DNA of 47,418 nucleotides from Lachnospiraceae bacterium (GTDB taxonomy: Bacteria; Bacillota; Clostridia; Lachnospirales; Lachnospiraceae), in contig JAGBMJ010000001.1 of assembly GCA_017634975.1 (NCBI GenBank), forward strand, positions 1 through 47,418, in the 5' to 3' direction. The notes under the pieces were generated by a model. That model had not been told where the DNA came from. It worked only from the letters and a program-made list of their open reading frames with translations, and did no database searches. The position numbers and the translations under genes were made by a program. Below, in pieces: positions 6,302-9,204 of this stretch (position 1 is its first letter; each line of letters opens with the position of its first letter).

Positions 6302-7090
6302 ATGGTATTATATTATTCCGCTACGGGGAACACAGAATTTATCGCAAAGCAGATCGCTGACCGTCTGGAGGATCAGTGTCTGAATCTGCTGGAACGCATC
6401 CGGACAGAGGATGTCACACCGATCCGGTCGAGAAAACCGTTTGTGATATGCTCACCGATCTATGTCTGCGAGATGCCGCAGTTCCTGACGGATTATCTGA
6501 AAAAGGTCAAGCTGTCCGGAAACCGGAAAGTCTATTTTATCTTTACCAGCGGTGGCTATACCGGGATCGCCGGTCCGCTGGCCCGACAGATCATGCGGCA
6601 TAAGAATAAAGTGTATATGGGGCGGGCAGAGTTTAAGATGCCGAGAAACTATCTGATCAGTGAGCATTACCCCATGCTTTCTCCGGAGGAGAACAAGGAG
6701 CGGATCCGCAATTCCTACGCCAGGATCCCGGAAGTGGTGGAGCGGATCCTGCAGCGAAAGAAACTGCGGGCGAGGCATGTGTTTTTGTTTGAACTGCTGA
6801 TCACGCTGCCGTTTCATCCGCTGTGGACGAAGTATAAACAGCCGGCATCGCCGTTCCGCGCGACGAACAAATGCATCAGCTGCGGAAAATGCGAGAAGGT
6901 ATGTCCGCTGAACAATATTGTGATGCTGTATAACAAGCCGGCGTGGAAAAAAAGCTGTGCGCATTGTATGGCGTGTATCGGGAACTGTCCGGTGGATGCC
7001 ATTGAATACGGAGAGCGGACGGAAGGAAAAGAGCGCTACCGCATCAGCAAATACGTGAAGCGATTCACGGGGGAGCTGGAGTGGAAATAA
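6302..7090 (+). CDS. EFR1 family flavodoxin-ferredoxin protein
   Basis: A 262-residue redox protein with an N-terminal flavodoxin-like fold (YYSATGNTEFIAKQIADRL binds the FMN phosphate) and two C-terminal [4Fe-4S] motifs: Cys191, 194, 197 and 201 (CISCGKCEKVCP) and Cys219, 222, 225 and 229 (CAHCMACIGNCP). Such proteins are expected to carry electrons in the cytoplasm between reductases and unknown acceptors. The start ATG 6302 has GGGAGG eight bases upstream and lies 5 bases after the cyclase stop, so it is in the same operon. Why an electron carrier is co-transcribed with a diguanylate cyclase is not evident. Family assignment is firm; the physiological partner is unknown. Confidence 0.9.
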   Translation: MVLYYSATGNTEFIAKQIADRLEDQCLNLLERIRTEDVTPIRSRKPFVICSPIYVCEMPQFLTDYLKKVKLSGNRKVYFIFTSGGYTGIAGPLARQIMRHKNKVYMGRAEFKMPRNYLISEHYPMLSPEENKERIRNSYARIPEVVERILQRKKLRARHVFLFELLITLPFHPLWTKYKQPASPFRATNKCISCGKCEKVCPLNNIVMLYNKPAWKKSCAHCMACIGNCPVDAIEYGERTEGKERYRISKYVKRFTGELEWK

Positions 7091-7125: not shown

Positions 7126-9081
7126 ATGGCGTTTGATTCAAGAGCATATGTACATGAGGCAGATAAGGCAGCGTTAAATGCGCTGAAAGCGATACCGGGA
7201 TTTCAGCAGCTGGTAAAAGGATTTATGAAGATCTTCAGCGAGCGGCAGTATCGCATTGTGAATCTGTCAAGTAATATACGGATCTCGGAAAAGCAGTTTC
7301 CGAAGTATTACGAGATGCTTCCTCCGATCTGTGAGAAACTGGGGATCGATGTGCCGGATCTGTATCTCTGCCTTAACGATAATCCCAATGCCTATACGGC
7401 CGGTGATGAAAATCCGTTTATCGTGATGACCTCCGGTCTGATCAACAAAATGCCGGAAGAACTGTTGCCAACGGTACTGGCACATGAATGCGGACATATC
7501 GCCTGCCATCACCAGCTGTATTCCACCATGGGCAGGATCGTATTAAGCGGTGCCTCCACAGCAGCAAGCACGTTTCTTCCGATGGGGGGGCTGCTGACGG
7601 TTCCGATGCAGGTGGCATTTTATTACTGGATGCGCTGCAGCGAGTTTTCCGCAGACCGCGCCGCAGTATTGTGTGACGGAACGGCAGACAAGATGTCTAC
7701 TGCATGTATGTATTTTGCAGGATACGACAGCCGTTTTCCGGTAGAACCGAATAAAGAAGAATTCATGAAACAGGCGCAGGAGTATCGCGAGATCGTCAAG
7801 AACAACGGATGGGATAAGACACTGGAATTTATGTATATGGCGAATGCCAGCCATCCGCTCACGGCAGTGCGCGCACTGGAATGCGAAGAGTGGGCGAAGA
7901 CAGAGCTGTGCCGGGGACTTTTGGAAGGCAGGGTCATTGTACGGAAGAAAGGGGAGGCGGCTAACGAAGAAAACCGCAGCGGTAAGCGTTCAAACGGTGC
8001 AGATCTGAAAACCGCTGAAGAGGCTCAGGCGGAAGTGTTTCGGGAGATGTCGAGAAATGCATCTGCCACTGTTACAGATGTGGCTGATACGGCACCGGCA
8101 GCTGACGAGACAAATAGTATGTCATCCGTGAAGGAAGAAAAGCCTGCGGAGGTAAGCGGTGCGGCATCCGCAGTTACTGAGACACAGAGCGTTGCTGCCG
8201 GGAGTGAAACACCTGTAAATACCGTGAAGCCGGAAGCGAGAAAGGATACCATTCCCTGGTACAAGGACACAAAGCTGACCGCAAAGAATGCAGAGATCGC
8301 AAAAGAAACGCAGAAGATTTGCCGGGAAGGAGCCTATCAGTATATCGGGAAACCCCTGAAGCTGCCGGAGCATGACTTCTCGGCAGGGGAGCTGTTTGCG
8401 CCGGAGGATGGAGCCTACTTTATCCAGAAGGGTATCGCGGAATATCAGAAAGAAATGTCATGTAAGATCGAAGTGACAAACGAGGATTCCTATCAGGCGG
8501 CGCATCGTTATTCAAATCCGTTTGTTATGAATTTTGCAAACGCGGTGCATCCGGGCGGAGGATTCCTGATCGGGGCACCGGCACAGGAAGAGTCCCTGTG
8601 CCGGAACAGTACATTGTATATGTCGCTGACATCCAGAACGGCTTCTCCGATGTACCGGTTCAATAAGTTCAAACCGCTGGCATCTGATTATATGCTGCTT
8701 TCTCCGGAGGTGTGTGTCTTCCGCGATGCGCATGGAAACCTGCTGGAAGAGCCTTACATGGTTTCGGTTTTGACAACACCTGCGCCCAATCGGAAAAAAG
8801 AGGCGGCCAATGTGGCGGCGGAAGCGATCGATGAGACAATGAAGCGCAGGATAAAGATCATGCTGCATATTGCAATGAAGAAGGGGTATAAGAATCTGAT
8901 CCTCGGTGCCTGGGGATGCGGTGCTTTCGGACATGATCCGGCGGTGGTTTCGGAATACTTCCGTTCCATTCTGATCGATGAAGGATATCAGGAGTGCTTT
9001 AAGAATATCTGTTTTGCAGTGTACGGACCGGAAGACAGCGCTAACTACACGGTATTCCGGGATGCTTTTTCGAGAGTATAA
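7126..9081 (+). CDS. Fusion: M48 metallopeptidase + bacterial PARG macrodomain (TIGR02452-like)
   Basis: A 651-residue two-domain protein. Residues 1-280 are an M48 zinc peptidase: HECGH at 120-124 supplies two zinc ligands and the catalytic Glu, and Glu173 in SEFSADRAA is the expected third ligand. Residues 280-375 form an Ala/Glu/Thr/Ser-rich, low-complexity linker. Residues 385-651 match bacterial-type poly(ADP-ribose) glycohydrolases: Gly477-479, seven residues, then Gln487-Glu488-Glu489 (the GGG-x6-8-QEE signature), followed by LTTPAPNR and LGAWGCGAFGHDP, typical of the family. Both active sites appear intact. The start ATG 7126 has AAGGAG at 7111-7116; upstream in-frame GTG 7081 and ATG 7105 lack good sites. 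There is no signal peptide and no clear TM pair as in HtpX, only one hydrophobic stretch after HECGH, so it is probably cytoplasmic. The fusion may couple removal of ADP-ribose to proteolysis; this is inference. Confidence 0.88.
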   Translation: MAFDSRAYVHEADKAALNALKAIPGFQQLVKGFMKIFSERQYRIVNLSSNIRISEKQFPKYYEMLPPICEKLGIDVPDLYLCLNDNPNAYTAGDENPFIVMTSGLINKMPEELLPTVLAHECGHIACHHQLYSTMGRIVLSGASTAASTFLPMGGLLTVPMQVAFYYWMRCSEFSADRAAVLCDGTADKMSTACMYFAGYDSRFPVEPNKEEFMKQAQEYREIVKNNGWDKTLEFMYMANASHPLTAVRALECEEWAKTELCRGLLEGRVIVRKKGEAANEENRSGKRSNGADLKTAEEAQAEVFREMSRNASATVTDVADTAPAADETNSMSSVKEEKPAEVSGAASAVTETQSVAAGSETPVNTVKPEARKDTIPWYKDTKLTAKNAEIAKETQKICREGAYQYIGKPLKLPEHDFSAGELFAPEDGAYFIQKGIAEYQKEMSCKIEVTNEDSYQAAHRYSNPFVMNFANAVHPGGGFLIGAPAQEESLCRNSTLYMSLTSRTASPMYRFNKFKPLASDYMLLSPEVCVFRDAHGNLLEEPYMVSVLTTPAPNRKKEAANVAAEAIDETMKRRIKIMLHIAMKKGYKNLILGAWGCGAFGHDPAVVSEYFRSILIDEGYQECFKNICFAVYGPEDSANYTVFRDAFSRV

Positions 9082-9168: not shown

Positions 9169-9204
9169 GTAACCATTCAGAACCGTAATGTTCTGAATGG
9201 TTAC
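9169..9204 (-). terminator. Perfect 15-bp inverted repeat with T-run on the minus side
   Basis: The arms at 9169-9183 and 9190-9204 are exact complements around a CGTAAT loop. The six A residues just before the left arm (9163-9168) become a T-run only for minus-strand transcription. No minus-strand gene ends here, so it may block antisense read-through, or act as a plus-strand processing hairpin between the fusion gene and the lipoprotein. Confidence 0.5.

Follow-up and report, generated by a model that had tools for sequence, protein, structure and literature searches.

An M48 peptidase fused to a microbial PARG macrodomain in Lachnospiraceae may be an unrecognised cell-defence enzyme

Introduction

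Why would a bacterium carry a zinc peptidase and a poly(ADP-ribose) glycohydrolase (PARG) in one polypeptide? The question is raised by a gene in a 47,418-nucleotide stretch of a Lachnospiraceae genome (assembly GCA_017634975.1, contig JAGBMJ010000001.1, forward strand), which we refer to as the window. Both component domain families are already known. Bacterial PARGs (DUF2263) are described in the available text of PMC5966428 as reversing PAR, and that of PMC11833690 reports that 2'-OH ADP-ribosylation of RNA is likewise reversed by them, and that they protect E. coli against an ADP-ribosylating toxin. The architecture that joins such a domain to an M48 peptidase was noticed in a sequence-only reading of the window, which knew of no account of it; we likewise found no description in the open-access literature (PMC library), including papers on M48, HtpX or zincin peptidases with PARG or macrodomains or in an anti-phage or conflict context. 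We asked whether the fusion is real, how far it extends among related genomes, and what its two halves might do together.

Results and discussion

A single gene encodes both domains

The features of the locus are listed in Table 1. Both domains are read in one frame of 651 codons without a stop, as originally noted, and fused orthologues are present in two further related assemblies. One of them, at locus L033 from a Lachnospiraceae genome of the sheep omasum, encodes a protein 90% identical to that of the window; the other, at locus L035 from an uncultured Lachnospiraceae, encodes a 555-residue fusion with 88% identity in the M48 half and 71% in the PARG half. An AGGAG-type ribosome site precedes the ATG at 7126 as well as the genes of L033, L035 and the unfused sister locus L034 described below, and the longer alternative start, GTG 7081, is without comparable ribosome-site support. 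A frameshift or two separate genes had been named earlier as what might undo the finding, and an estimated contamination of 7.46% for the window's assembly gives some reason to consider that assembly or frame errors produced the fusion. Set against this are the identical architecture in L033 and L035, the low dN/dS values given below and the flanking genes common to the window and the orthologue loci; an artefact is already refuted by the existence of the fused orthologues, and we regard its probability as negligible.

Table 1. Coordinates of the features at the fusion locus (positions in the window)
Feature	Position	Strand	Remarks
EFR1-like gene, flavodoxin/ferredoxin type	6302..7090	+	directly upstream of the fusion; adjacency not conserved
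M48-PARG fusion gene, 651 aa	7126..9081	+	single stop-free frame; Pfam/NCBIfam domains; fused orthologues in L033 and L035
M48 zincin module, residues 1-268	7126..7929	+	HECGH 120-124, Glu173, Asp177; without strongly hydrophobic segment
Low-complexity linker, residues ~269-376	7930..8253	+	almost absent in L035
PWYKD junction motif, residues 377-381	8254..8268	+	conserved in all three fused proteins
Microbial PARG macrodomain (TIGR02452/PF10021)	8254..9078	+	GGG 477-479, QEE 487-489
15-pair hairpin after the fusion gene	9169..9204		terminator-like on the minus strand only

The N-terminal half matches the Pfam family Peptidase_M48 (PF01435) at residues 79-256 with an E-value of 1.9e-15 and 57.6 bits against a cut-off of 20.3. 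It carries HECGH at 120 and EFSAD at 173, an HExxH motif with a downstream ExxxD, which we take to be the zinc ligands of M48 peptidases. The C-terminal half matches PARG_cat_microb at 392-534 (Pfam; E 2.1e-29, 103.2 bits against a cut-off of 23.5) and TIGR02452 at 391-645 (NCBIfam; profile positions 2-265 of 266, E 2.4e-57, 194.5 against 50 bits). Its GGG and QEE motifs are separated by seven residues, in agreement with the GGG-X6-8-QEE signature given for microbial PARGs in the available text of PMC5966428. The M48 active site (HECGH 120-124, Glu173) and the PARG signature (Gly477-479, Gln487-Glu489) therefore lie where the sequence-only reading had placed them, the first within a match over the curated Pfam cut-off and the second within a full-length TIGR02452 match. 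By sequence, the one polypeptide thus combines an intact M48 metallopeptidase module with an intact bacterial PARG macrodomain.

Profile comparison with solved structures found an HtpX homologue, 3cqb, as the nearest chain to the M48 half (E 1.1e-05). Like the M48 peptidases of the HtpX/Ste24 group (PF01435), the fusion has HExxH and ExxxD motifs, but unlike HtpX it is without a strongly hydrophobic segment and belongs to a HECGH clade with exchangeable tails. The top hydropathy of any 19-residue span in the fusion is 1.24, and there is therefore no apparent membrane segment. Filing the protein under the HtpX subfamily and its membrane quality control was rejected, given a best score of 50.5 against an equivalog cut-off of 369 bits and the low hydropathy.

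Among solved structures, the PARG half has bacterial PARGs as its relatives; two of these chains, 3sig and 3sij, differ by an E to A exchange at the second glutamate of QEE, corresponding to Glu489 here. Like the microbial-type hydrolases represented by 3sig (Deinococcus, Streptomyces), the fusion's macrodomain is full-length with GGG-X7-QEE, and it is 38% identical to the plasmid copies of D. radiodurans. Those enzymes are free-standing, whereas the PARG here forms the C-terminal half of a protease. Two-domain proteins with a PARG occur elsewhere in Lachnospiraceae, with ADP_ribosyl_GH in L020, L061 and L062 and with Macro in L052; in these the partner is another ADP-ribose domain, while in the window it is a peptidase. 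The PARGs of L011 and L017 continue into a long C-terminal domain that has no match in Pfam.

Both halves are maintained while the linker varies

The segment joining the halves is of low complexity, as noted before, although by the present bounds it comprises 108 residues rather than about 95. It has a similar length (~108 residues) in L033 and is almost missing in L035. Among 274 loci, the DNA pattern of the PWYKD junction motif had no matches beyond the fused loci and duplicates of them. Between the window and L033, dN/dS is 0.042 in the M48 half, 0.049 in the PARG half and 0.26 in the linker; between the window and L035, the values are 0.061 for M48 and 0.156 for PARG. Both halves are under purifying selection in the three related species and the linker is much less constrained, and the low dN/dS in M48 and PARG shows that both are maintained. 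A fast-evolving, low-complexity linker would suit a form of autoregulation in which the M48 half cuts this disordered segment and so releases the PARG domain. With almost no linker to cut in L035, we consider this highly improbable.

The fusion was found in three of the 35 genomes of the window's genus (G000, G311 and G327). In a fourth species (G313, with locus L034), the M48 gene has no PARG and ends in an unrelated low-complexity tail; we found no PARG remnant in L034, where the DNA similarity to the fused genes ends near codons 260-266. Among the matches listed from 299 family, 392 order and 398 phylum genomes, samples that overlap, include the window's genome and scored at most 3-4 candidates per genome, only the window's own protein matched with both halves; the class-level search used the M48 half alone as the query. 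Whether the architecture is common had been raised as a check on the original proposal, and it was thus seen in 3/35 genomes of the genus and not again among the matches listed in the wider samples. All 20 phage records retrieved matched the PARG part only, with no fusion among them, and none of 37 plasmid records covered 80% of the query, the 30 listed matching one half of the fusion each. On viral contigs, 0/32 matches to narrow sequence patterns encode an M48 relative; these 32 matches and the 20 PARG-only phage records gave no support for the M48 half having come from phages.

We built trees of both halves, leaving out from the PARG tree L001, L038, L039, L040 and L057 (duplicates), L056 (fragment) and matches weaker than 1e-15. 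Genomes with the fusion also contain free PARG paralogues. The fused PARGs form one clade (support 100/99) that excludes L002 and L059, the free paralogues of two fused genomes, and a single fusion event is therefore the simplest account. The M48 tree also groups the fused rows (98/78), with L034 as their sister, and would fit either a loss of PARG in L034 or a gene in which it was never present.

The gene neighbourhood is rearranged among orthologues

In the window, the fusion is preceded by co-directional genes for a GGDEF protein (a diguanylate cyclase) and the EFR1-like flavoprotein, the latter separated from it by 35 bp, and followed by a gene labelled lipoprotein-like by its appearance and without a Pfam match. 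The operon with a diguanylate cyclase and an electron carrier proposed earlier holds as far as the co-directional genes are concerned, but the adjacency is not kept in L033 and L035. In L033, EFR1 and the fusion are separated by an epimerase-like gene and by a gene for a GTPase that matches DUF697 weakly; the gene preceding the M48 gene in L034 and L035 is presumably transposase-like, with no Pfam match. Genes on the 3' side also vary (small HECMH protein, MFS transporter, lipoprotein-like) up to a common LacI-GGDEF gene. The M48 gene occupies a variable slot, and the arrangement with the diguanylate cyclase and EFR1 is local. We therefore set aside a function read from this operon, the neighbourhood being rearranged in L033, L034 and L035; it probably says little about what the fusion does.

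The small HECMH protein (196-200 aa) is encoded directly downstream of the M48 gene, fused or unfused, in L033 (7974-8561, plus strand) and L034 (7120-7719, plus strand). Its N-terminus is hydrophobic by eye, the L033 copy is without a Pfam match, and no such gene was seen behind the window's fusion.

No ADP-ribosyltransferase adjoins the fusion, a point already made in the sequence-only reading and borne out for the four window neighbours scanned with Pfam. PADLOC gave no match for the fusion protein. Of ten other window proteins, it left six unmatched and assigned three to ATPase models (mad3/mad8 and others), which we read as ABC-type ATPases; the remaining one gave a GlgB-like match (C3a214, E 4.7e-36). 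With PADLOC on these ten proteins and with dynamin, BnzB, TerB and TIR profiles, no defence gene was found beside the window's fusion.

C-terminal modules are exchanged within the clade of the M48 half

The fused proteins fall in a 22-row HECGH clade (support 100/100) of a 46-row M48 tree; L102 (same as L034), L167 (same as L036) and L188 (same strain as L107) were dropped from the tree or from the locus comparison below. HExxH is present in all 46 rows and ExxxD in 45, the exception being a truncated row. The C-terminal tails of the clade comprise BnzB (6), PASTA-like (5), CxxC zinc-ribbon type (5), PARG (3), SHOCT (1), low-complexity (1) and almost no tail (1); the PASTA-like label was given by look, one tested tail having no Pfam match, and the zinc-ribbon label comes from Pfam for one protein (L037). 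On this tree, we assign the fusion's M48 half to a predicted soluble HECGH clade, distinct from HtpX, that exchanges its C-terminal module.

PADLOC matched five of the six BnzB tails, and the sixth, in L169, was matched by our own profile. The M48-BnzB proteins have the same N-terminal M48 module as the fusion (37-42% identity), but a C-terminal BnzB and an adjacent TerB-like gene where the fusion has PARG. The available text of PMC10952713 counts TerB among the Bunzi domains, and the M48-BnzB loci with TerB are an apparent variant of Bunzi with a built-in peptidase. At the window, Bunzi is not indicated: its own genome has no BnzB match, and the BnzB and TerB profiles match the loci of six relatives and not that of the window. 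In L091 (7269-9683), L094, L096, L097, L169 and L170, the M48-BnzB gene is followed by TerB-like and PDC-M09A-like genes; an L091 neighbour copy matches TerB (E 1.2e-5) and another matches PDC-M09A, and the neighbours outside L091 were assigned by similarity to these copies. BnzB is also found in two genomes of the window's genus, in frames where no M48 was seen.

Dynamin-like genes are present at 11 M48 loci, and when one gene each from five of these was submitted to PADLOC, all five matched LeoA/LeoBC models. The best LeoBC match beside an M48 gene was at the locus of a close relative, L180 (E 4.6e-101). In a recurrent arrangement, the M48 gene of L098, L099, L100, L101 and L186 is flanked by dynamin-like GTPase genes, with a pair on one side and a single one on the other; where tested, in L098 and L186, these are LeoA/LeoBC-like. 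In L090 (2558-6951), the M48 zinc-ribbon gene and a gene for a 1168-aa TIR-RHS protein have a 4-bp overlap; L092 has TIR genes ~1.2 kb downstream of a sister M48 gene. A CARF-nuclease-like gene adjoins the M48 gene in L093.

Altogether, 19 of the 46 loci of M48 relatives have dynamin-like (11), BnzB and TerB (6) or TIR (2) genes, in comparison with two of 20 HtpX-like control loci, both with weak dynamin-profile matches; there is some circularity here, since the compared loci were also the source of the profiles, with only two of them behind the TIR profile. The control loci were picked from lower-scoring M48 matches as HtpX-like, with no annotation, and two were shorter than asked. The other 27 loci, that of the window included, are without dynamin-like, BnzB/TerB or TIR genes. 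A profile of a small zinc-ribbon protein encoded nearby matched 10/46 test and 2/20 control loci and was not used. The labels need few changes on the M48 tree (dynamin 2, BnzB 1, TIR 1), which, with profiles drawn from the same loci, means that the association rests on few independent events. We consider the chance that the HECGH M48 clade is defence-associated to be about even, and the M48-PARG fusion may itself be an unrecognised cell-defence enzyme.

A possible division of labour between the two halves

Our main reading, to which we give a probability of roughly one in three, is that the fusion acts in the cytosol as a two-headed conflict or stress enzyme, with the PARG half recognising and clearing ADP-ribosylated targets and the M48 half cutting protein. 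The PARG half would bind and hydrolyse ADP-ribose attached to a protein or nucleic acid, and the tethering would bring the M48 half into position to cleave either that protein or the ADP-ribosyltransferase behind the attack. BnzB, zinc-ribbon, SHOCT and PASTA-like tails would have the same aiming or sensing role for a constant protease. We favour a C-terminal module that aims or triggers the peptidase because this would best join a tail-swapping protease with a catalytically intact macrodomain, and the coupling of de-modification and cutting proposed earlier would be compatible with the data. Extended to an ADP-ribose-guided protease, in which PARG directs M48 and an immune protease family has been re-aimed by tail swaps (PARG, BnzB, zinc ribbon, SHOCT, PASTA-like), the proposal becomes rather unlikely. 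If the activities are coupled, a nucleotide-derived mark would direct the protease, and bacterial PARGs, which are largely enigmatic, would act in microbial conflict in a second way. Independent of coupling, the soluble M48 proteins of the HECGH clade look like a module of Bunzi-, dynamin- and TIR-type loci that has been overlooked.

Candidate ADP-ribosylation partners

For a protease aimed by its PARG half, the trigger would most likely be a toxin or phage transferase, with the unlinked KptA/Tpt1 of the three fused genomes as a weaker candidate writer. DarT was found in none of four genomes (the three fused ones and the unfused sister), and the fusion was accordingly not assigned to DarTG. 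The PARP search gave no match in these four genomes, nor did its positive control.

TIR genes are present in all four genomes examined, on contigs other than that of the fusion, and no TIR gene lies beside the fusion as it would beside a Thoeris effector. In the available texts, a Thoeris TM-macro effector and a type IV Thoeris caspase-like protease employ a macrodomain and a protease, respectively, on ADP-ribose-type signals (PMC11204291, PMC12847820). The fusion resembles them in these components, but has another protease class, a PARG-type macrodomain with catalytic residues and no TIR gene at its locus. It could in principle work as a Thoeris-like nucleotide sensor: ThsA macrodomains bind ADPR-type nucleotides (PMC11204291), a TIR product activates the caspase-like protease (PMC12847820), two close M48 relatives share loci with TIR proteins, including the 4-bp overlap in L090, and TIR genes occur in each of the four genomes examined. 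The QEE glutamates of hydrolases are kept, however, and would be superfluous for a pure sensor, the fusion's contig is without a TIR gene, and both TIR-linked relatives end in tails of the CxxC zinc-ribbon type and not in macrodomains. A sensor of this kind is improbable.

All three fused genomes contain KptA/Tpt1, unlinked to the fusion, and the unfused sister has none; across the genus it occurs in 10 of the 35 genomes. The hypergeometric chance of this co-occurrence is ~0.02, without correction and for a comparison picked post hoc; as the three genomes are also sisters and KptA is not linked to the fusion, we treat it as a lead only. According to the available text of PMC11833690, the bacterial PARG SCO0909 was the most active of the tested hydrolases when the substrate was 5'-phosphate RNA carrying ADP-ribose from a Tpt1/KptA-like enzyme. 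Together with the KptA genes in the three fused genomes, this would suit two independent stress enzymes that are joined in one chain so as to be expressed together, an M48 half for protein quality control and a PARG half for repair of ADP-ribosylated RNA, DNA or protein, uncoupled from each other. Such independence is also in line with the highly variable length of the linker, the M48 gene that stands without PARG at the corresponding locus, L034, and the free PARG paralogues of the same genomes. It fits less well with the repeated tail exchange on the same M48 module, which suggests that the tail matters to the protease, or with the retention of both halves by three fused species. Doubtful as it is, we judge independent activities to be almost as likely as a protease aimed by its tail.

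A separate observation comes from another genome of the genus, in which KptA and a different PARG are encoded in one short gene cluster (L271, 2602-5325, minus strand).
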